Shown here in pieces: positions 7,637 through 31,996 of a stretch of DNA of 64,000 nt. The stretch's first letter is position 1. Each line of letters begins with the position of its first letter. Under the pieces are notes generated by a model that worked only from the letters and a program-made list of their open reading frames with translations, had not been told where the DNA came from and ran no database searches. Source of the DNA: Saccharicrinis aurantiacus (GTDB lineage Bacteria; Bacteroidota; Bacteroidia; Bacteroidales; Marinilabiliaceae); assembly GCF_001660705.2 (NCBI RefSeq), contig NZ_LYBV02000013.1, positions 1-64,000 of the forward strand, read 5' to 3'. The position numbers were made by a program, and so were the translations under genes.

Positions 7637-10453
7637 ATGATAATAAAAATAGTTGGTAGGCCTGTGTTTACCGTATTAATATTTCATTTAGCATTATTAA
7701 AATTAAGTGCTCTTAATACTACAAATGTAAATCAACAAATGGTTGTTACACCTTCTGTGACTACATTTATGAAAGATGTTTACAATGCCGAGAATCAAAA
7801 TTGGGATGTAAGTAGTTCGGACAAAGGGGTGGTATATTTTGCCAATTCATTAGGGCTGTTAGCATATGATGGAGAGAATTGGGAACTACACAGCACTGAT
7901 AATATACTGCGATCAGTGCATTGCATTGGAGATACTATTTATGTGGGAGGCAATGGAATAATGGGCTACTATATTGAAAGTGAAAATTTATCTACATTCT
8001 ATTCTTTATCCAATATACAATCCGATATATGGAAGATTTATTCATTTGATGAGGATGTTGTATTTCAATCGTTTAATAGATACTTCTACCTCGATACCAA
8101 TGGTAGAATTAGTATTGAGCGTATAGCAGAGGGTAATACTAGTTATTCATATCCGCTTGAGAATGAAATCTTTTATCAGGTAAATTACGGTGCTTTATTT
8201 GCTTTAAAACCCAATAAATCTAGTCGACAAATAATTGATGATACTATATTGAGTAAGTATATGGTCAATTACATTTCTAAACTTGAGCAGAACAAGTATC
8301 TAATAGGAACTAGAAATAATGGGCTGTTTTTTATTGAAAATAATGAGTTGCGACCATTTAATGGGGAGTTAAATGAATTACTCAAACGATATAAGATTAA
8401 TAGAGCAATTCATTTGAAGGATGATACCTATGTTTTTGGAACTTTGGATGGAGGACTAATTGTTGCTAATTTATCCGGTGAAATTAAGTATGTTCTCAAC
8501 CAGAAAAATGGATTGGCCAATAATAGAGTACATAGTTTATACAAACAAGATGATTCTAATTTATGGGTTGGTACTGAAAATGGGATATCACATATCAATA
8601 TTGAAAACCCCTTGCGTTACCTAGAAAATAAGAATATTGAATTAGGAATTAATTACGACTTGGTAGAATACAATGGTTATTACTATTTATGTACAAATAA
8701 AGGCGTATACCGTAATAAAGTTAAACCCTTTCAATCCTATAAACACAACCTAGAATTGGTTGATGGAACAGAAGGACACGCATGGAGCTTGAATGTAATT
8801 GATAATAATCTGTTTATAGGACATAATGATGCAAGCTTTATTATAGAGGGAGATCAATTAAGGAAATTGTCACATATAGCTGGTGGTTATCAATTTTTAC
8901 GAAGTAAAATAGACCCAAGTATTATTTACCAAAGTTCTTTTTATGGATTGGCCGTTTATAAGAAGATAAACCAGCAATGGAATCTTTATTATACAATAAA
9001 TAATATTGATGGACCAACGCGCGATGTAATTGAACTTGAAGATGGTTCGTTGCTAGTTAGCTCGCAATACAAGGAAGCTTTTCATGTTTATCCAGATAAT
9101 GAATTGAAGAGTGCACAAATTAAAGATTTGAGTAAGCTCACTGCCTTCAAGAATTCAAAGTGGATTAGAGCTTTTAATGTTGGGGATGATCAACTTTTAG
9201 TTACCAATGATACCTCTGTTTATTATAAAAATGAGCAATTGTATAAAGCTCCTGCAGCAATGCAAAATATTAGTTATGTATCAGAGTCAATTAATAACTA
9301 TAATTTTATCTTAAAAAACGGCCGATTACGTTTGTACAATCCTAATACTAGCCAATTTGTAAATATTCCGTATGATCTGTCTAAAGTAGAGAGGAATCTT
9401 ATTTTTAAATATGAAAATATTAGAAAAGTAGGCGATGCTAGTTTTATTATTTGTTTATCAGATGGATTAGTTTATTCTAATATTGATAGTTTACTCCAAC
9501 ATCCTATTGCCAATAAAAAGACAGTCTTAACAAATGTTGAATTTAGTAATGATAGGTCAGCAGAAACCTTTACGGTAGATAGTATAAGTGTTATTCCGAA
9601 TGATTTTAATACGGTAACAATTACCTTCTCTGCCTTAAATTATAATAGCGATTCTAAATATGAAGTATTTCTAGAAGGCTATCATACAGAATGGAGATCC
9701 ATAAAAAATAGGAATTGGGTAAAATTTCAAAACCTTAGAGAAGGAGAATATAAATTAAAGGTTAGAGAATTGGGTAAGGCTGAAATTACGACTTATGCAT
9801 TTGTAATAGAACCTCCTATTTTTAGAACAAACATGGCCTATATGATCTATCTGCTCATTGTTATTGTATTAGCTTGGGGCATTCGATTTTCAATAGAAAA
9901 AAGAGCACGTTGGAGCCTGTATAAGCTGCGTGTAAAGGAGCGAAAGAAAAGAAATGAACAGTTACTTTTAAGAACAAAGGAGTTATTAAATACTGAGGTG
10001 AAAGAGCTGCAATCAGAGGTGTCGAGTAAAACCGATAAATTAACAAACTTGCTTTTACAGAATACCAAGAAAAAGGAAGTTATTGATAATATTAAGGAGG
10101 AATTGCACGGTATAAAAAAGGAACAGCGATATGTAAATGCTCGTCATATTGATAAGCTTTCGCGAATGATAAAAACCAATATTGACGAAACTAAAGATTG
10201 GTTGGTGTTTGAAGCGGCCTTTTCTGAGGCGCATCAGAATTTCTTTAAACGATTAAAAGAAAAACATCCAAAACTGAGCCCTGAGGATCTTAAATTGTGT
10301 GCTTACCTGAAGGTTAATCTTTCTTCAAAAGAATTGGCACCAATATTTAAAATTACTATTCGAAGTGTGGATTTAAAAATTTACCGCTTAAAGAAGAAGA
10401 TGGATTTGCAGAAGGATGTTAAGCTTAAAGAATACATTCAAAACTTTAATTGA
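7637..10453 (+). CDS. Membrane sensor-regulator: beta-propeller ligand sensor, Y_Y_Y domain, TM segment, coiled coil, LuxR-type HTH
   Basis: I place the start at the ATG at 7637, because it gives a direct signal peptide; an in-frame ATG at 7580 adds 19 unlikely residues. The 938-residue protein has an N-terminal two-component-regulator-like beta-propeller (motifs such as GLLAYDGENWELHS and NLWVGTENGISHI), a Y_Y_Y domain before the membrane, one transmembrane segment (about 735-755), a long charged coiled coil (about 760-860), and an HTH from about 880 with the segment LSSKELAPIFKITIRSVDLK. This resembles hybrid two-component sensors of glycan loci but has no histidine kinase or receiver: sensor and DNA-binding domain sit in one chain. 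It is divergent from the GH2-susCD operon and probably controls it. The cytoplasmic side probably signals by dimer rearrangement (inference). Confidence 0.88.
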   Translation: MIIKIVGRPVFTVLIFHLALLKLSALNTTNVNQQMVVTPSVTTFMKDVYNAENQNWDVSSSDKGVVYFANSLGLLAYDGENWELHSTDNILRSVHCIGDTIYVGGNGIMGYYIESENLSTFYSLSNIQSDIWKIYSFDEDVVFQSFNRYFYLDTNGRISIERIAEGNTSYSYPLENEIFYQVNYGALFALKPNKSSRQIIDDTILSKYMVNYISKLEQNKYLIGTRNNGLFFIENNELRPFNGELNELLKRYKINRAIHLKDDTYVFGTLDGGLIVANLSGEIKYVLNQKNGLANNRVHSLYKQDDSNLWVGTENGISHINIENPLRYLENKNIELGINYDLVEYNGYYYLCTNKGVYRNKVKPFQSYKHNLELVDGTEGHAWSLNVIDNNLFIGHNDASFIIEGDQLRKLSHIAGGYQFLRSKIDPSIIYQSSFYGLAVYKKINQQWNLYYTINNIDGPTRDVIELEDGSLLVSSQYKEAFHVYPDNELKSAQIKDLSKLTAFKNSKWIRAFNVGDDQLLVTNDTSVYYKNEQLYKAPAAMQNISYVSESINNYNFILKNGRLRLYNPNTSQFVNIPYDLSKVERNLIFKYENIRKVGDASFIICLSDGLVYSNIDSLLQHPIANKKTVLTNVEFSNDRSAETFTVDSISVIPNDFNTVTITFSALNYNSDSKYEVFLEGYHTEWRSIKNRNWVKFQNLREGEYKLKVRELGKAEITTYAFVIEPPIFRTNMAYMIYLLIVIVLAWGIRFSIEKRARWSLYKLRVKERKKRNEQLLLRTKELLNTEVKELQSEVSSKTDKLTNLLLQNTKKKEVIDNIKEELHGIKKEQRYVNARHIDKLSRMIKTNIDETKDWLVFEAAFSEAHQNFFKRLKEKHPKLSPEDLKLCAYLKVNLSSKELAPIFKITIRSVDLKIYRLKKKMDLQKDVKLKEYIQNFN

Positions 10454-10475
10454 TATAACCTACGCACTAAAATAA

Positions 10476-10505
10476 CAAAGGGCACCTTAATCGAGATGCC
10501 CTTTG
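10476..10505. terminator. Hairpin between convergent genes, possible bidirectional terminator
   Basis: CAAAGGGCA and TGCCCTTTG form a perfect 9-bp stem between the ends of the sensor gene (10453) and pepD (10528). No long T-run follows, so the terminator call is moderate. Confidence 0.5.
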
Positions 10506-10527
10506 CTGTATTAAATAAAATCGAAGT

Positions 10528-11988
10528 TTATTTGTTTGGAATATTCTTGAGCGTTTCTACTAGATATTCCCAAAACTTTTCAACTGAGTCAATATTTACT
10601 TTCTCGTCAGGTGAGTGAGGAAAACGAATTGTAGGACCAAAAGAAATCATATCCCAATTAGGATAAGCTGCTCCTAAAATTCCGCACTCTAAACCAGCAT
10701 GGATGCCTTTAATTTCAGGCGTTTCTCCGTGAAGCTTAAAGTACACTTCCTTCATAGTATTGAGTATTGCTGAATCAGGGTTCGGTTTCCAACCTGGATA
10801 CTGACCGCTAAATTCAATATCGGCACCCGCTAATCTGAATACACTTTCTAATGTTGATTCCACATCATCTTTCGCTGAATCTACCGACCCTCTAATAAGG
10901 CACATTACTTTGGTTACGCCATTCTCAGATTTTACAATAGCTAAGTTTAATGAAGTTTCAACAAGGCCTGGCATGCTATCACTCATTCTGATAACACCAT
11001 TGGGGCAAGCCTGTATTCCGTTCACTAAATCGTCTTGTGCCATTTCATCCATAACAAAAGCAGGCAATTCACATTTCTCAGCTACTAAAGATAAGTTTGG
11101 TTCAGTAACAGCCAATTCTGTTTTGAATATTTTAGCAAATTCCTCAACGGTTTCAACAAACTCAATTACATTATTTGAAGGTACTGTTACTGTAGCAAAA
11201 GCTTCGCGCGGAATGGCATTGCGTAAGCTACCACCATTAATGGATGATAAGCGTGCGCCATAACAAACAATAACCTCCTTCAATAAGCGGAACATTAATT
11301 TGTTAGCATTTCCACGGCCTAGGATAATATCCATACCAGAGTGGCCTCCTTTTAAGCCCGTAAGGGAAATGTTAAAAGCAACAGAATTAGTATCAGCCTC
11401 AACTTCGGTGTATTTAAAAGTTGCATTGGCATTTGAACCACCAGCACAGCCTACATATAATTCACCCTCATCTTCCGAGTCGAGGTTTAATAAAATATCA
11501 GCATCCAATAAACCAGGCTCCAAACCAAAAGCTCCTGTCATACCAGTTTCTTCATCAATGGTAATTAAGGCTTCAATCGGGCCGTGCTCTATATCGGTAG
11601 CTTGTAAAACAGCCATTGCTGCAGCTACACCAATACCATTATCAGCTCCTAAGGTTGTGCCATTGGCTTTAACCCATCCATCTTCAATAAATGTTTCAAT
11701 AGGGTCAGTTTCAAAGTTATGCACCTTATCGCTATTTTTTTGAGGAACCATATCAATATGGCCCTGCATTACAACGGTTTTAGCATTCTCCATGCCAGGA
11801 GTAGCAGGCTTTTTTATAATTATATTTCCAACTTTATCAACAATGGTTTCTAAACCTAGTTTTTGTCCGAAAGCAACTATAAAGTCTGCTGCTTTTTGCT
11901 CTTTTTTACTTGGTCGGGGAATCTGAGTTAAGGCATAAAAGCTTTCCCATAAACCTTTAGGTTCTAATTGGGCGATAGTATTTTCCAT
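10528..11988 (-). CDS. pepD: Cytosolic non-specific dipeptidase / aminoacyl-histidine dipeptidase (M20)
   Basis: The 486-residue protein matches the PepD branch of M20 metallopeptidases in length and motifs: GHIDMVPQ (first metal-binding His and Asp), GADNGIGVA (bridging Asp), TIDEETGMTGAFGL (catalytic and metal-binding Glu pair), and the late GIHAGLECG with the last metal-binding His. PepD hydrolyses dipeptides such as Xaa-His with two zinc ions in the cytoplasm; no signal peptide is present. It is downstream of the DUF4831 and NnrE/NnrD genes on the same strand, with a 75-base gap, so it may have its own promoter. Function is confident; physiological substrate range is not visible. Confidence 0.95.
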   Translation of the reverse strand: MENTIAQLEPKGLWESFYALTQIPRPSKKEQKAADFIVAFGQKLGLETIVDKVGNIIIKKPATPGMENAKTVVMQGHIDMVPQKNSDKVHNFETDPIETFIEDGWVKANGTTLGADNGIGVAAAMAVLQATDIEHGPIEALITIDEETGMTGAFGLEPGLLDADILLNLDSEDEGELYVGCAGGSNANATFKYTEVEADTNSVAFNISLTGLKGGHSGMDIILGRGNANKLMFRLLKEVIVCYGARLSSINGGSLRNAIPREAFATVTVPSNNVIEFVETVEEFAKIFKTELAVTEPNLSLVAEKCELPAFVMDEMAQDDLVNGIQACPNGVIRMSDSMPGLVETSLNLAIVKSENGVTKVMCLIRGSVDSAKDDVESTLESVFRLAGADIEFSGQYPGWKPNPDSAILNTMKEVYFKLHGETPEIKGIHAGLECGILGAAYPNWDMISFGPTIRFPHSPDEKVNIDSVEKFWEYLVETLKNIPNK

Positions 11989-25733: not shown

Positions 25734-26090
25734 ATGATCATTAATATTTTTATGAAGGCTGTTAAAGAAGACGGCACAATTAATCTTTACCTAGCCGACA
25801 ATGAGGGCGATATGGGTAAAAATAACTTAACAACTAAAGCTAAAGATGGCGATCAAATTGTATGGAAACTAGCTAATGAAAGTTCCATAAAAGAAATCAC
25901 AGGTATTTCTAAAAAAGAAGGCAGTAAATCTGTTTTTAGTGAGGGACCTGCAGCCAAGAGTAGTACCGAATGGACCGCTACGGTTGCTGATGATGCTGTA
26001 GGTGTAGAATCTTACAATATTGATTTTGTCTATGAGGATGGAACGCCTGTTCATGTGGATCCATTGGTTGATGTTCCACCTGCAGGATAG
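25734..26090 (+). CDS. Small beta-rich protein, paralogue A of the kinase cassette
   Basis: The 118-residue protein has no signal peptide and I do not recognise its family. It aligns end to end with the proteins at 28317 and 28818: shared positions include (M/L)KAV at the start, DNEG near residue 23, W(K/E)LA near 45, YNIDF.YEDG near 95, and a closing DP...VPP. The spacing suggests an all-beta sandwich of about 110 residues. It is immediately upstream of a TPR histidine kinase gene, with its stop codon inside a hairpin that leads to the kinase start. The start at 25734 is supported by alignment with paralogue C. Function is unknown; a ligand or modulator of the kinase is possible. Confidence 0.8.
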   Translation: MIINIFMKAVKEDGTINLYLADNEGDMGKNNLTTKAKDGDQIVWKLANESSIKEITGISKKEGSKSVFSEGPAAKSSTEWTATVADDAVGVESYNIDFVYEDGTPVHVDPLVDVPPAG

Positions 26091-26113
26091 TATTTTAACA
26101 AATGAAATACTAT
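26087..26113 (+). promoter_or_regulatory. Intercistronic hairpin overlapping the stop codon of paralogue A and abutting the kinase GTG start
   Basis: ATAGTATTT (26087-26095) pairs perfectly with AAATACTAT (26105-26113) around a 9-base loop. The TAG stop of the small protein lies in the left arm and the GTG start of the kinase begins at 26115. A ribosome finishing the first gene would open the stem, so translational coupling is a reasonable inference. Confidence 0.6.
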
Positions 26114-26114
26114 T

Positions 26115-27977
26115 GTGGTTAGATTTATAAAAATATGGATATTCTCTTTGATAGTATTTCATTTTTTTTCTGTTAATGCAAATATTGATAGTTTAATTTA
26201 TTTTTGTAATAAAGACTCAGGCCAAGTGTCTTGGAAATTGTTATATTCTCGATATAAAGAAATATCTTTTTATTCAAATGAAGTAGCAATTAAAATTTCA
26301 TATGCCAATAAAGCTCATTTATTGGCACAGCACTACGGAGATCATGTGCTGGAGGGATCTGCCTTAGTGTTGTTGAGCCGAGGATATCAATTAGCTGGGA
26401 ATAATATAAACGCATTATTAGCTTTAGATAAAGCACAAGTTAAACACGAAATAGTTGGATTTAGGGAGGGTGTGGCTGATTGCTTATTTCGTAAGGCTGG
26501 AGTTTATCAAAAGATTAACGGTTTCGCTAAATCGGAAGAAACTTATTTAGTCGCCATTGATGAACTTTTGGAGCTTGATTCTTTGAGATGTGCGGCCGCA
26601 ATATGTAATCTCGGTGAGTTATATCGAGAATGGGGAAAACCGAATAAAGCACTTTCTAAACTACAAAAAGCAGATAGTTTATTTACTCAACTGAATAATA
26701 TATCATCAACAGCCTACACCAAAGGAAATATTGGTCTAGTTTACATAGACCTCAATAAACCAGATAGTGCCAAAGTTAATTTACACAAAGCCATTGCAAT
26801 ATTAGAACCTACGGGAGATAATTACGCGGTGTCTGCCTACTTAGAAGGCTTAGCACGCTTAGTCATTGCCGATGGTGATTTGGAAAAAGCAGAACAATTG
26901 GCTCAGAGGAGTTTACGCTTGGCTAACGAGTACGGATTAAAAGAACAAATACGCGATGCCAGTTTGTGTTTATCGAGTATATATAGTAGCACCCAAAACT
27001 ATAAAGAAGCTTACCATCATCATAATAACTATGTAATTTATCGCGATAGCCTAGTAAACGAAGATACCATACGCGAAATTGCCAACTTACGTACTAAATA
27101 CGAGGTGGCACAAAAACAGAAAGAAGTAGATGATTTACAAAATAAAAAGAGCAAGCACCAATTGTTGCTTGTGGCGTTACTTATAATACTTGTTTTATTA
27201 GGCATACATATATTTCTTTTATACAAAAATCGTAAGCAGCGTAATCGCGATAAATTATTACTTGAGGAGCAACGTAATGCCTTATTAAAATCAAACGATA
27301 CCAAAAATAAGTTCTTCTCAATACTCTCGCACGATTTACGCAGCCCCATTGCTACCTTTAATAGCTATGCCGAATTACTTAATTATTATATTAATACCAA
27401 TGAAATTGAACAATTACCCAAATTGGTGCAAGAACTAGAGCGTTCATCGAGCAGTGTTATGCATTTGCTTGATAACCTACTACAGTGGGGTATGGTTCAA
27501 ATGCAAAACATAAAAATAGAACGACAGCAAATTAAGGTTATACAAGTTTTTAAAGAAGAATTGCATCACCTGAACTCCATTGCTTTGGCAAAAGATATTC
27601 AGATACAATTCAATATAGCCACCGATATTGAACTTTTTGTAGATAAGGCCTATTTTGCCATGACGCTTCGAAACCTTATTAGCAATGCCATTAAATTTAC
27701 CCCAAAGGGAGGCTTTGTTTGTGTGAGTACTTACCGCGAAAACAATAGTGTTATTATTAAGGTGGCCGATTCTGGTGTTGGTTTAGATGAGGATGCTTTT
27801 AAATTGCGTCTTAAAAGCGGTGAAATTTTAAGTACCTACGGCACCAATAACGAAAAAGGACTTGGTTTAGGGATGCAATTGGTTTGTAGCTTTATTAATT
27901 CGCATAATGGTAGCATTGATGTGGAAAGTAAGTTAGGAAAAGGTGCTACGTTTATTTTGCATTTGCCTATGGTTTAA
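26115..27977 (+). CDS. TPR-sensor transmembrane histidine kinase 1
   Basis: The 620-residue protein starts at a GTG. It has a signal peptide (about 1-22), a TPR region on the outer side (about 60-330, with repeats such as CNLGELYREWGKPNKALSKL and YTKGNIGLVYIDLNKPDSAK), a coiled segment, one transmembrane helix (about 350-370), a HisKA domain with phospho-acceptor His406 in SHDLRSP, and an HATPase domain with N-box NLISNAIKF, VADSGVGL and GLGLGMQLV. No receiver domain is attached and no response regulator gene is adjacent. It would autophosphorylate in the cytoplasm in response to a periplasmic signal. It is closely similar to the kinase at 29217, especially from residue 320 on. Confidence 0.92.
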   Translation: MVRFIKIWIFSLIVFHFFSVNANIDSLIYFCNKDSGQVSWKLLYSRYKEISFYSNEVAIKISYANKAHLLAQHYGDHVLEGSALVLLSRGYQLAGNNINALLALDKAQVKHEIVGFREGVADCLFRKAGVYQKINGFAKSEETYLVAIDELLELDSLRCAAAICNLGELYREWGKPNKALSKLQKADSLFTQLNNISSTAYTKGNIGLVYIDLNKPDSAKVNLHKAIAILEPTGDNYAVSAYLEGLARLVIADGDLEKAEQLAQRSLRLANEYGLKEQIRDASLCLSSIYSSTQNYKEAYHHHNNYVIYRDSLVNEDTIREIANLRTKYEVAQKQKEVDDLQNKKSKHQLLLVALLIILVLLGIHIFLLYKNRKQRNRDKLLLEEQRNALLKSNDTKNKFFSILSHDLRSPIATFNSYAELLNYYINTNEIEQLPKLVQELERSSSSVMHLLDNLLQWGMVQMQNIKIERQQIKVIQVFKEELHHLNSIALAKDIQIQFNIATDIELFVDKAYFAMTLRNLISNAIKFTPKGGFVCVSTYRENNSVIIKVADSGVGLDEDAFKLRLKSGEILSTYGTNNEKGLGLGMQLVCSFINSHNGSIDVESKLGKGATFILHLPMV

Positions 27978-28316
27978 AGGTAGGTTCCCTAGTTGTAATA
28001 AAAAGATATACAACCAGTCATTTGTTTATAGTAAGCCTAGCTGTTCAATTTTAATTGTATTCTGTTTTGTAGTTATATAAAGAAGGGTGTTTGTAGTCTA
28101 TTCTGTAGCGCGTAAAAATTTGTAATTTATTTACTGTATAATAACGGAGCTATAACTCCTGTGCAGCCCGTTATATGGGCATAGTTGCATGTATTTACTA
28201 CATAGGCTCAATGTTAAATATTCAGACTGCAGTGTGTTTTTTTTAACAATAGGTTTTCTGTAAACATAAAATTACTATTTTTAGCCTCGTTTTTAATAAT
28301 TAAAACCTAAAACCAT
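27978..28316. other. Intergenic region, 339 bases, no gene seen
   Basis: Lies between the first kinase and the second cassette. TATTTTTA at 28276-28283 is one base from the TAnnTTTG promoter element, 34 bases before the lipoprotein start. I see no terminator with a T-run, repeat or small reading frame I can support. Confidence 0.35.
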
Positions 28317-28784
28317 ATGAAACGGAACCTATTATTAAGCGCTATAGCAATACTAATATGTATATCCTGTAGCAAAGAAGATTTAAAAGAAACTCATAGC
28401 AATGAGGATTTAGAAGAAACACCAACAGCAGATGTTACCATTAGCATGCGTGCTGTAGATACAGGCACAGAAATTACCCTTGATCTTTGGGATACACAAG
28501 GTAACACGGGTACTCCAATGATTGAAACTAAAGCAGAACCCAACTTTATTATCAGATGGGAGTTGGCCGAGGATAGCAAAATAAATAAAATACTCAATAT
28601 TTATAAAAAGGAGCATAGTGCTGATATTTTTGAGGTGCAACCTTACCGTGTATCGCATGGTATTTGGGAAGCTAAAGTAGCCCCCTGGGCAGCTAACAGC
28701 ATTGAGTACAATATCGATTTTGAATATGAGGATGGGAGTATAGTTATCATTGATCCTATTATTGAGATTCCTCCGAAAGACTAA
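28317..28784 (+). CDS. Lipoprotein form of the small beta-rich protein, paralogue B
   Basis: The 155-residue protein has a lipoprotein signal peptide ending ISC (Cys18), then an acidic linker with a short internal duplication (EDLKETHSN and EDLEETPT), then the same 110-residue domain as the proteins at 25734 and 28818. Shared positions include RAV at its start, WELAED, KILNIYKKE, YNIDFEYEDG and DPIIEIPPKD. It is thus an envelope-anchored version of a domain whose two paralogues have no signal peptide. The next gene, paralogue C, follows after 33 bases. Family and function are not recognised. Confidence 0.82.
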   Translation: MKRNLLLSAIAILICISCSKEDLKETHSNEDLEETPTADVTISMRAVDTGTEITLDLWDTQGNTGTPMIETKAEPNFIIRWELAEDSKINKILNIYKKEHSADIFEVQPYRVSHGIWEAKVAPWAANSIEYNIDFEYEDGSIVIIDPIIEIPPKD

Positions 28785-28817
28785 AACAATAAGTGTAAAC
28801 AATTTAAAATTTAATTT

Positions 28818-29174
28818 ATGTCATTGAAAATTCTTTTGAAAGCCGTAGAAAAGGACGGAAAAATAGACCTTTGGTTGAGTGATAATGAAGGTAATATAGG
28901 AGTAGATGATCTTAGATCAGTAGGAGGTCGTGGTCAAAAGGTTAAATGGAAATTAGCTAAGGATAGTAATATTAATAAGATTCTAAATATTTATAAGAAG
29001 GAAGATAGCGAAGAAGTCTTTAGTGTAAAACCGCATAAAGTGACTGATAAGAAATGGAAAGGGGTTATTGATAAGGATGTTGAGGGAGATGAAGCATATA
29101 ATATTGACTTCGAATATAAGGATGGGTCAAAGGTAAGTATTGATCCAGTTATAAGTGTGCCACCTAAAGATTAA
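28818..29174 (+). CDS. Small beta-rich protein, paralogue C of the kinase cassette
   Basis: The 118-residue protein has no signal peptide and matches paralogue A over its whole length (start MSLKILLKAVEKDGKIDLWL, end IDPVISVPPKD). It shares the stretch KILNIYKKE with lipoprotein B, so B and C are the closest pair in the middle of the domain. It lies between lipoprotein B (33 bases upstream) and kinase 2 (42 bases downstream, across a perfect hairpin). The order small protein, hairpin, GTG-started kinase repeats the arrangement at 25734-27977. Function unknown. Confidence 0.8.
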   Translation: MSLKILLKAVEKDGKIDLWLSDNEGNIGVDDLRSVGGRGQKVKWKLAKDSNINKILNIYKKEDSEEVFSVKPHKVTDKKWKGVIDKDVEGDEAYNIDFEYKDGSKVSIDPVISVPPKD

Positions 29175-29184
29175 TAATTTTGAA

Positions 29185-29205
29185 AGGAGAGATTTGGTCT
29201 CTCCT
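29185..29205 (+). promoter_or_regulatory. Intercistronic hairpin between paralogue C and kinase 2
   Basis: AGGAGAGA (29185-29192) and TCTCTCCT (29198-29205) form a perfect 8-bp stem with loop TTTGG, 11 bases before the kinase GTG at 29217. There is no T-run, so it is more likely a translational or processing element than a terminator. Confidence 0.6.
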
Positions 29206-29216
29206 ATAGTTTACTT

Positions 29217-31079
29217 GTGAAGTTACTTTTAAAGATATATTTCGGGTTAACACTCCTTTTCTGCGGAGGAATTGGTGAATTTAGTTTTGCCAATACTAAA
29301 GAGTTATATTCTGTTTCTGAATTATTAATCAAGTATAGAACATATTATGACACCTTTTACAAAATAGAAAACCCTAGCCAAAGATATTTGTATGCGGATT
29401 CAGCTTTAATTATTGCGGTTAAGTTAGATGACAAGGAAAGAGTGGCTAGGGCTATGCTTTTAAAGGCCTTAACGCATAGAGTGCGAGGAGATTTTTTTAA
29501 GGCAATGGATTGTGCACAAGAAGGTCTATTTATATATGATAAACTCAACGATTCAAAAGGAATAGCTGCATCTTATCTTGAAACTGGTAATATATATTAC
29601 CAAAGTAAAGAAAAGAGGAAAGCAGAAGAATGGTATAAAAAGGCCTTAAATGCATTTAAGTATATTAACGACTCTCTTAGATGTGCTGCTGTAAACCTCA
29701 ATTTAGGAGAATGTAAAAGAGATTGGGATGAGCCAGATTCTGCCATATATTTTAATAAGAGAGCAAGCAAATTATTCCAAAAAGCTAAATATAGTCAGGG
29801 CGTTGCATACGCAAAAGGAAATATGGGATTGGCATTTATTGACTTAATAGAGTTGGATAGTGCAAAAAAATATCTTGATGAAGGGGTGAAGCTTTTAGAG
29901 CCTTATAAGGATAATTATGCTATCTCATCTTATAAAGAAGGGTTGGCAAGAATTTATTTAGAAGAGAAACATTACTCAGATGCTATTAACGCTGTTATTA
30001 GTAGTTTCCTTTTGGCTAAAGAACATGGTCTAAAAGAACAAATGCGAGATGCTAGTTTGACCCTAGCTAATATTTACAATGCACAAAAACAATACGATAA
30101 AGCTTACCAAAAACATTGTGAATATGTAGCTTACCGCGATAGTATTAATAATGAAGAAACGGTGCGTAAAATTGCAAATCTCCGCACCAAATACGAAGTT
30201 GCTCAAAAACAGAAAGAAGTAGATGACTTGGTAAATCAAAAAGAGCGTTACACTATAATTGGTATTTCATTATTTGTTGTTTTGTTTTTGTTATTAGCAC
30301 ATGTGGCGCATTTGTACCGTAACCGCAGATTACGTAAGCACGATGCCATTATTTTAGCTAAGCAGCATAAAGAACTAGAGATTGCCAACGATACAAAAAA
30401 TAAGTTTTTCTCCATACTCTCCCACGATTTACGTAGTCCCATAGCAACCTTTAACAGTTATTCAGAAGTACTCAACTATTATTTGGAGACCAACGATTAT
30501 GAGCAAATACCCGAATTAGCCAAAGAGTTAGAGCGTTCTTCGGCAAGTGTAGTGCAATTGTTAGATAACCTATTGCAGTGGGGGGTTATTCAAATGAAAA
30601 ACATAAAGATAAACAAGGTTAATGTGCCTATTCTGCAAGTGTTTCAAGAAGAATTGATTCACATACAACCCATTGCCAACTCTAAAGACATACAAATACA
30701 ATCGAATATAGCCAGCGACCTAGACTTGCACGTAGATAAGCCATTTTTTGCAATGACTATGCGTAACCTTATTAGTAACTCCCTAAAGTTTACCAAAGTT
30801 GGCGGTTTTATAACCGTAAGTGCCTATCGCGAAAAAGACCATATTATTGTTAAAGTAGCTGATACAGGTATTGGTTTAGAAGTAGCCGATTTTAAAAAGC
30901 GCCTATGCTCAGGTGATATTGCAAGTACCTACGGCACAAACAACGAAAAAGGTTTAGGTTTAGGCCTTCAATTGGTATGTAGCTTTATAGAGTCTCATGG
31001 TGCCGAAATAGATGTTGAAAGCATCATAGGTAAAGGCACTACCTTTATCTTAAAATTTAAGAATACTATTCTTTCCTAA
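29217..31079 (+). CDS. TPR-sensor transmembrane histidine kinase 2
   Basis: The 620-residue protein has the same length and layout as kinase 1: GTG start, signal peptide (about 1-25), TPR region (about 60-330, e.g. AASYLETGNIYYQSKEKRKA), transmembrane helix (about 344-364), HisKA with His403 in SHDLRSP, and HATPase with NLISNSLKF, VADTGIGL and GLGLGLQLV. The segment IANLRTKYEVAQKQKEVDDL is identical in both kinases, and most of the catalytic half is very similar, while the N-terminal TPR halves differ more. That pattern fits duplication followed by sensor divergence. No response regulator is adjacent. Confidence 0.92.
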   Translation: MKLLLKIYFGLTLLFCGGIGEFSFANTKELYSVSELLIKYRTYYDTFYKIENPSQRYLYADSALIIAVKLDDKERVARAMLLKALTHRVRGDFFKAMDCAQEGLFIYDKLNDSKGIAASYLETGNIYYQSKEKRKAEEWYKKALNAFKYINDSLRCAAVNLNLGECKRDWDEPDSAIYFNKRASKLFQKAKYSQGVAYAKGNMGLAFIDLIELDSAKKYLDEGVKLLEPYKDNYAISSYKEGLARIYLEEKHYSDAINAVISSFLLAKEHGLKEQMRDASLTLANIYNAQKQYDKAYQKHCEYVAYRDSINNEETVRKIANLRTKYEVAQKQKEVDDLVNQKERYTIIGISLFVVLFLLLAHVAHLYRNRRLRKHDAIILAKQHKELEIANDTKNKFFSILSHDLRSPIATFNSYSEVLNYYLETNDYEQIPELAKELERSSASVVQLLDNLLQWGVIQMKNIKINKVNVPILQVFQEELIHIQPIANSKDIQIQSNIASDLDLHVDKPFFAMTMRNLISNSLKFTKVGGFITVSAYREKDHIIVKVADTGIGLEVADFKKRLCSGDIASTYGTNNEKGLGLGLQLVCSFIESHGAEIDVESIIGKGTTFILKFKNTILS

Positions 31080-31228: not shown

Positions 31229-31274
31229 GTTATATTCTTTGCGATATATAATTGCTATTGCTAAATTTATAAAC

Positions 31275-31646
31275 ATGACCCTAAGTAAAAAACAACTTAA
31301 ACTCTTTGCCAGAGACCTTAGGAATGATTCAACACCAGGTGAGATTATTCTTTGGAAGAATGCACTTCGAGCAAAACAGATGTACGGTTACCAGTTTAAC
31401 CGACAATTTTGTATACAAAACTATATCGTGGATTTTATAAGTAGAAAACTGAAGTTAATTATCGAGGTAGATGGTTACTCTCATCAATTTAAGATAGAGG
31501 AAGATCTTGCTAGGGATAATTTGCTAAATGATTTGGGGTATGTAGTATTAAGAATTCAGGAATACGATATTAAAACTGATTTCCCAAATGTATTAAGGCT
31601 TATTGAGTCGGTAGTTTTAGATCAGAAGCAGAACTTAGGTTTGTAG
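31275..31646 (+). CDS. DUF559-family protein, Vsr/restriction-endonuclease-like fold
   Basis: I place the start at the ATG at 31275 (MTLSKKQ, 123 residues); an in-frame upstream ATG at 31239 reads through repeat-flanking DNA. The protein has the DUF559 pattern: STPGEIILWKNALRAKQMYG, FNRQFCIQNYIVDFISRKLK, LIIEVDGYSHQF and a closing GYVVLRIQEYDI. Asp in VDF and the Glu and Asp of IEVDG are the likely nuclease residues, as in Vsr-like and other PD-(D/E)xK enzymes. No methyltransferase or mismatch-repair gene is next to it; instead it is flanked by copies of a TIR-bounded repeat. DNA cleavage or nicking at those repeats is a hypothesis only. Confidence 0.85.
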   Translation: MTLSKKQLKLFARDLRNDSTPGEIILWKNALRAKQMYGYQFNRQFCIQNYIVDFISRKLKLIIEVDGYSHQFKIEEDLARDNLLNDLGYVVLRIQEYDIKTDFPNVLRLIESVVLDQKQNLGL

Positions 31647-31665: not shown

Positions 31666-31812
31666 TTTCCCCCTTCGCGAAGGGGGTTGTCTTCAAGTTC
31701 TCATAGTTTAATATTTTAGGGGGATTGACTTTATGAGATCAAAAATCCCCCAAACCCTGCAATGCCATAAAACCTTTTTCAAGCCAACCCCCTTTTTCTA
31801 AAGGGGAATGAA
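31666..31812 (+). repeat. TIR-bounded 147-bp repeat element, copy 2
   Basis: Same orientation and layout as copy 1, but the first hairpin loop reads TCGCGA and the last arm has one C/G pair lost (AAAGGGGAA). It begins 19 bases after the DUF559 stop and is followed by a linker ending ATATATAACAC. Confidence 0.85.
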
Positions 31813-31830
31813 TTCTTAATATATAACACT

Positions 31831-31979
31831 TTTCCCCCTTGGCGAAGGGGGTTGTCTTCAAAGTCTTCGTGTATTAATAATTTAGGGGGATTGACTCTAC
31901 AATATCCAAAATTCCCCAAAGCCTGCAATGCTATAAAACCTTTTTCAAGCCAACCCCCTTTTTCTAAGGGGGAATGAAA
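31831..31979 (+). repeat. TIR-bounded 147-bp repeat element, copy 3
   Basis: Nearly identical to copy 1. It starts 165 bases after copy 2, and the linker with AATATATAACAC is conserved between copies 2-3 and 3-4, so copies 2 to 4 look like a tandem array with a unit of about 166 bases. Confidence 0.85.
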
Positions 31980-31996
31980 TCTCAATATATAACACT

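Follow-up and report, generated by a model that had tools for sequence, protein, structure and literature searches.

Two cassettes at positions 25,734 to 31,079 of a stretch of Saccharicrinis aurantiacus DNA each placed a small beta-rich protein (SP) ahead of a tetratricopeptide repeat (TPR) sensor histidine kinase (HK). The stretch, the first 64,000 nucleotides of contig NZ_LYBV02000013.1 (assembly GCF_001660705.2), is referred to in full as the window. Comparison of related loci strongly supported SP and the TPR kinase as one conserved signalling module, in line with a preliminary description of this DNA. The sequences and structure models further suggest that the proline-rich C-terminal tail of SP may be the ligand of a peptide-binding-type TPR domain of the kinase, a reading to which we assign a probability of about 0.5. 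No published account of the SP/TPR kinase pairing was found in literature searches, and the pairing had been called undescribed before.

Gene content of the two cassettes

Five open reading frames (ORFs), all on the plus strand, made up the cassettes: SP1 (25734-26090, 118 amino acids (aa)), HK1 (26115-27977, 620 aa), SP2 (28317-28784, 155 aa), SP3 (28818-29174, 118 aa) and HK2 (29217-31079, 620 aa). The positions and the order (small protein then kinase, twice) agreed with the preliminary description. The small proteins started with ATG and both kinases with GTG. SP2 and SP3 showed 41% and 43% identity to the small, all-beta SP1, so that the three were rightly taken for paralogues. The assignment of one lipoprotein and two signal-less forms was also borne out: the N-terminus of SP2 had a hydrophobic segment followed by a lipobox-like Cys, and no hydrophobic segment was present in SP1 or SP3, where in-frame stops allow at most four and at most one extra upstream residues, respectively. 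Profile searches of the same genome recovered no SP copies beyond SP1-3 (E<=0.01) and no kinases of this kind beyond HK1 and HK2 (E<=1e-45).

Both kinases had the general features of TPR sensor kinases, with TPR_12, HisKA and HATPase_c above the Pfam cut-offs, an N-terminal hydrophobic stretch and one transmembrane-like segment (about 342-373; 345-373 in HK1). The best family for both was that of the FimS-type TPR histidine kinases (NCBIfam NF053520), which covered TPR, HisKA and HATPase over nearly the full length, at scores below its cut-off (167.2 and 177.2 against 600 bits). HK1 and HK2 were 51% identical over 554 aa, with 66% in the catalytic halves and 38% in the TPR halves. The stronger divergence of the TPR halves thus held, while the wording that the catalytic halves were nearly the same was too strong at 66%, despite the stretch IANLRTKYEVAQKQKEVDDL being the same in both. 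Recent gene conversion between HK1 and HK2 was not supported, the fraction of identical codons being low all along (0.29-0.73). A separate tandem pair in genome G050 (L028:5938-7797 and 9173-11068) had identical-codon fractions of 0.25-0.71 in residues 1-400 and 0.82-0.95 past residue 440; there the catalytic halves appear clearly to have been homogenised by gene conversion, with the TPR halves spared.

Association of SP with the kinase

The census of SP was obtained by profile searches of the same GTDB family and of the families f97 and f171, after which the loci at the 35 SP places were read. SP was present in 17 of 71 genomes of its own family, 9 of 23 genomes of f97 and the one genome of f171 searched. 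A homologous TPR kinase lay next on the same strand in 31 of the 35 cases, a pairing far above chance; this count includes SP2 and a copy in G001 (another SP between), three loci with a mini-lipoprotein between (G021, G022 and G023), the decayed module of G008, a frameshifted SP (G024) and L101, whose kinase is truncated by the contig edge at residue 250. Of the four remaining SPs, two lay at a single contig end in G005, and two were lipoprotein SPs of G047, of which one followed closely on a kinase and the other was an orphan. The SPs of L103 and L105 were identical and may come from one strain in two assemblies. The SP-kinase gap in f97 and f171 was -23 to 8 nucleotides.

A wide spread of SP across Bacteroidota was rejected, because SP was rare beyond these families: it was found in 1 of 395 phylum genomes (its own) and 7 of 393 order genomes, both lower bounds with at most 10 candidates scored per genome. 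The seven include one false match, in G666, to a protein that is LutB-like by eye.

Searching from the side of the kinase, 46 matches were obtained in the 71 family genomes, of which 20 were counted as this clade, judged by score and identity without an outgroup tree. SP lay directly upstream of 16 of the 20 (two modules broken), three had none (G045, the second of G047 and the first of G050), and one, in G005, began so near a contig start that 307 bases preceded it. The remaining TPR kinases of the family, several of them next to genes taken by eye for xseA and xseB, had no SP. No intact SP was seen at 80 named kinase loci (the best 80 of 434), and a decayed one was present at L117.

Two observations concern loss of the module. 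At L032 (G008, about 8188-10425) both partners had decayed, SP by an in-frame stop and the kinase by a stop that splits it. In a shared position next to rplS (by eye), L034 (G047) keeps only a lipoprotein SP and L097 (G045) only the kinase and an 11-residue tail ORF, which looks as if one module had been halved in two ways.

No match was found for a plasmid-borne module. A viral origin was also rejected, with no hit in viral contigs (no relative among 57 stretches that matched a pattern) and no fold in BFVD that matched convincingly, as was a defence system, for which only weak hits to the TPR and kinase regions were obtained.

Fold and family of SP

A model of SP3 built from 20 sequences was all beta (pLDDT 94.7, pTM 0.85). 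Its best PDB matches in Foldseek were MakD (E 1.2e-6, TM-score 0.70) and 8rqy (MakC/MakD; E 2.7e-6, TM-score 0.72), and mutants of SO1698 were matched as well (E from 4.2e-6, TM-score up to 0.74). The sequence profiles of SP found 8rqy weakly and co-linearly (E 0.006 for alignment A1, 1 for A2 and 0.019 for A5). No Pfam family was matched by any of 30 SPs. A carbohydrate module was rejected for SP, as a sub-threshold hit to CBM_48 (E 0.02) was not repeated among members, and other hits below the cut-off were not recurrent either. Because the fold matches MakC/D and SO1698 and no Pfam family is matched, SP is, judged from the model, a new branch of the MakC/D-like fold outside any named family; the domain is not entirely new.

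MakC and MakD of Vibrio cholerae (PDB 8rqy, 6tct; NCBIfam NF049870) share the fold of SP (E 1e-6 to 3e-6, TM-score 0.70-0.72) and, like SP, are small, mostly without a signal peptide and encoded as adjacent paralogues in an operon. SP differs in not reaching the NF049870 cut-off (19.6 against 110 bits, with 1 of 30 members matching), in a Pro-Pro (PP) tail that is not in the aligned Mak stretches, and in its neighbours: MakC/D stand beside pore-forming toxin genes, whereas SPs stand beside a TPR kinase, with no MakABE-type neighbours seen on reading the loci and no hidden Markov model (HMM) search aimed at such toxins.

SO1698 of Shewanella oneidensis (DUF1888, now PF08985 DP-EP) shares the fold too (E 4e-6, TM-score up to 0.74). 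With HMMER filters on and E values of up to 10 admitted, PF08985 matched none of the 30 SPs, and it matched nothing in the S. aurantiacus genome, where controls were also silent. SO1698 is a self-cleaving protein that releases a short C-terminal fragment by a cut at Asp116-Pro117. SP tails often begin at an Asp-Pro; among 31 SP entries, 26 have this pair within their final 14 residues and 5 lack it. For the reactive lysine of SO1698, no conserved counterpart was visible in SP on alignment by eye.

MakC/D have DALI matches among the PixA/AidA inclusion-body proteins (PF12306), according to PMC11484084 and PMC9060813. PF12306 gave no match in the SPs and none in the S. aurantiacus genome, where controls were again silent. 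PMC11484084 describes MakC and MakD as cytosolic, dimeric proteins that affect expression or secretion of their operon partners, and gives their function as unknown.

Topology and the TPR half of the kinase

One transmembrane-like segment was found in all 24 kinases compared, and an N-terminal one in 19 of the 24 at the threshold used, so the TPR half, N-terminal of the membrane segment, should be periplasmic. Among the signal-less SPs, 23 of 24 had no transmembrane-like upstream extension; the exception was L026, and an in-frame ATG lay upstream of the SP of L029. The lipoprotein SPs were scattered on the SP tree, with four changes on the best tree and at least two forced, and SP2 grouped with SP3 (94/88).

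Given a TPR half in the periplasm, as predicted, and the absence of an export signal from most SPs, the whole SP is unlikely to be an outer ligand, and the C-terminal tail would be the better candidate. The earlier proposal that SP is a ligand matched to the TPR half is indirectly supported by a TPR tree that splits by tail type and by tails on export-type peptides, and is made unlikely for most whole SPs by their missing signal.

The model of the HK2 TPR half was a superhelix (pLDDT 92.5), and its best PDB matches were peptide-bound LGN, followed by the TPR domains of KLC and of Rap with pheromone.

The C-terminal tail and its domain-free carriers

SP ends in a proline-rich tail (e.g. DPVISVPPKD), and 26 of 31 SP entries have PP among their final 12 residues. 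The window tails, all on the plus strand, were PLVDVPPAG in SP1 (26061-26087, after Asp109), PIIEIPPKD in SP2 (28755-28781) and PVISVPPKD in SP3 (29145-29171, after Asp109).

Similar tails were found on peptides without the SP domain. The SP-kinase gaps of G021, G022 and G023 encode mini-lipoproteins ending in NPPLIRVP, KPPYIRIP and KLPNIRVP, while the SPs at these loci end in RPPALRIP, NPPTLRIP and NPPLIRVP. At L101 (f97), two ORFs with double-glycine (GG) leaders and the cores NDDPETPIIRIKP and NDDPEPPIIRVKL lie on the other strand beside an SP ending in NDPDGPVIRVKP; at L054 (f97), a GG-leader ORF with the core EGNYVDPPKIKVP lies 81 nucleotides before an SP ending in IDPPIIKVP. The L101 leader pair had two weak HMM hits (TIGR03893, E 0.02; PF16934, E 0.046) and the L054 leader none. 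Next to the GG-leader ORFs of L101, genes resembling a LytTR-type response regulator and its kinase were seen by eye (L101:2814-4504).

In a blind scan, 11,909 ORF ends in 28 module loci were scored against the local SP tail, with a maximum of 35 in the reversed-tail control. Six non-SP ends scored at least 35: the GG-leader ORFs of L101 (48 and 42) and L054 (40), the mini-lipoproteins of L037 (37) and L033 (35), and a 25-residue ORF ending in PDVPVEPPKK before the SP-less kinase of G047 (45). By eye, L041 held a third mini-lipoprotein with the tail, the 11-residue ORF MPEIQTDPPKK preceded the SP-less kinase of G045, and a 75-aa SP remnant ending in DIDPPKK, which scored only 25 in the scan, preceded that of G050.

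For comparison, of 91 other kinase genes 6 had a PP-ended ORF upstream (one of the six being the decayed module), as had 28 of 356 other genes, and there were ORFs ending in PPK[KDGTNR] upstream of 6 of 822 genes, five of them clade kinases (two of these five ORFs being SP genes); both tests were framed after the ORFs before SP-less kinases had been seen. Away from modules, type I tails in nine related genomes gave 13 pattern matches, five in SPs and eight with no ORF-end tail, by a pattern that misses SP3 and others, three of the eight non-SP matches not being re-found on reading. Type II tails in 13 genomes gave 63 matches against 63 control matches, and among the 30 loci read, real tails occurred at modules only.

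Gap hairpins and tail type

Hairpins were predicted in the SP-kinase gaps of both window cassettes, on the plus strand at 26086-26114, from the stop of SP1 to the start of HK1 (z -4.08, with none of 200 dinucleotide shuffles folding equally well), and, more weakly, at 29185-29205 between the SP3 stop and the HK2 start (z -2.07; 7 of 200). Five other gaps had them by one or both methods (L026, L031, the second of L027, L097 and L035), and terminator-like hairpins followed the tiny ORFs (11 and 25 aa) of G045 and G047 (z -3.06 and -3.05). None was found in the SP2-SP3 gap or in five other folded junctions (z -1.08 to 1.31), and in f97 the SP and kinase genes nearly touch, leaving no room. The hairpins would fit a ligand made in excess over its receptor and would equally fit a leader device.

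A tree of 28 TPR halves showed two groups that match two tail types with one change (97/94). Modules of both tail types were present in f1 as well as in f97, and a single genome, G856, had one of either type. Grouping of the kinase halves tended to follow taxonomy (f97 with f171, 81/88). Conflicting histories of the two halves were not upheld, as no conflicting grouping was rejected by approximately unbiased (AU) tests (p 0.20-0.38; kinase-half alternatives p 0.33 and 0.20).

Co-variation of SP with the TPR half had been suggested as a check: SP distances correlated with those of the TPR half (r 0.75; partial 0.43) and, slightly less well, with those of the kinase half (r 0.70; partial 0.22), species not being controlled.

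Proposed mechanism and alternative explanations

In the proposed mechanism, the periplasmic TPR superhelix would hold the tail in its groove in extended form, and the bound tail would set kinase activity. The exported carriers (GG-leader peptides and mini-lipoproteins) would deliver the tail from outside or from the envelope, the gap hairpins would ensure that more ligand carrier than receptor is made, and the SP beta domain would serve as a carrier, perhaps freeing the tail at Asp-Pro in the manner of SO1698.

Several points weigh against the tail as ligand. Most tail carriers (SPs and tiny ORFs) have no export signal to reach the periplasm, and resemblance to peptide binders is common among TPRs. 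The tail is partly folded in the SP3 model, where residues 111-114 form a beta strand, and it exceeded most of the protein in conservation in one of three groups only (rank 5 of 109), ranking 57 of 109 and 69 of 107 in the other two. No GG-leader or mini-lipoprotein form of the tail was found in the genus of the window, a search for GG peptides in 23 genomes of f97 found clear homologues in none but G856, and the PP- and PPK-ended comparisons had the late framing given above. Co-inheritance of a two-gene unit could explain the split by tail type equally well, because the AU tests left the alternatives unrejected.

That signal-less SP is instead a cytosolic accessory is possible, if doubtful. 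It would be a dimer like MakC/MakD that binds the cytosolic kinase half or the response regulator, with the tail as its last strand, the tiny ORFs as decay remnants and the lipoprotein copies as side products. The missing upstream extension in 23 of 24 signal-less SPs fits it, the correlation of SP distances with the kinase half agrees with it, and SPs do decay, as the G050 remnant and the fully decayed G008 module show. The cytosolic location, dimerisation and effect on operon partners given for MakC and MakD in PMC11484084 also favour it. It sits less well with the slightly better tracking of the TPR half and with the repeated gain or loss of lipoprotein SPs, and it leaves the domain-free tails on GG-leader peptides and mini-lipoproteins unexplained.

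By analogy with SO1698, the MakC/D-like domain might cut itself at the conserved Asp-Pro and free a short proline-rich peptide (e.g. PVISVPPKD) read by the TPR kinase, the GG-leader peptides, mini-lipoproteins and tiny ORFs being other sources of the same ligand. This we consider unlikely. Without its Met, MPEIQTDPPKK would begin with the very Pro that opens the cut tail of its relative (PEIIIKPPK).

It is improbable that the tail is a cis element in a leader peptide, whose proline-rich end would slow or stall the ribosome before the stop and, with the gap hairpin, set kinase expression. PP is a ribosome-stalling motif, the tail stands immediately ahead of the stop codon in the gene that precedes the kinase, with PP near the end of most SP entries, and hairpins were predicted at both window junctions and, with the 11- and 25-aa ORFs, before the SP-less kinases of G045 and G047. 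This reading fails for the many tail ORFs that have no kinase as their immediate downstream neighbour: SP2, three SPs with a mini-lipoprotein next to them, the SPs of L035 and L038 that precede lipoprotein SPs, the GG-leader ORFs (which at L101 even lie on the other strand), and in G047 both the lipoprotein downstream of its kinase and the orphan. In addition, GG leaders and lipoboxes are export features, five of the other junctions folded had no hairpin, and the f97 gaps had no room for one.

Hitch-hiking, in which SP and kinase are co-inherited without a functional reason, would suit the patchy presence of the module (17 of 71 family genomes) and is very improbable given 31 of 35 adjacent pairs in differing neighbourhoods of three GTDB families, some of them overlapping, and the decay of SP together with the kinase in G008.

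The tail as ligand of the TPR domain would recall systems of the ComC-ComD type and the Rap/RRNPP receptors in its GG-leader peptides, its kinase receptor and a TPR as peptide site. Candidates for an exported peptide gene beside the receptor were GG-leader ORFs at two modules (L054 and L101) and mini-lipoproteins at three, with none found in the genus of the window. The differences are that the TPR here would be the periplasmic part of the kinase, that most tail carriers have no GG leader and that one carrier is MakC/D-like; membership of ComC-ComD or Rap is not claimed.

Neighbouring genes

Directly past HK2, the window held a 135-aa ORF (31239-31646) with the look of a DUF559-type nuclease by eye. 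On the minus strand at 31779-31985, an ORF with a motif repeated twice (SPLEKGG / PFRKRGL) was possibly part of a small repeat element.

Significance

To our knowledge, few input signals of Bacteroidota TPR histidine kinases have been identified, and signalling by peptides that act on kinases has been described mainly in Gram-positive bacteria. The comparison of loci suggests that SP and kinase are an undescribed peptide-sensing pair in a few Bacteroidota families. With a defined kinase clade and a named candidate ligand of about nine residues, the question can be put directly to the test with synthetic peptides and, if the tail is indeed the ligand, the MakC/D-like fold would gain a partner-linked role.

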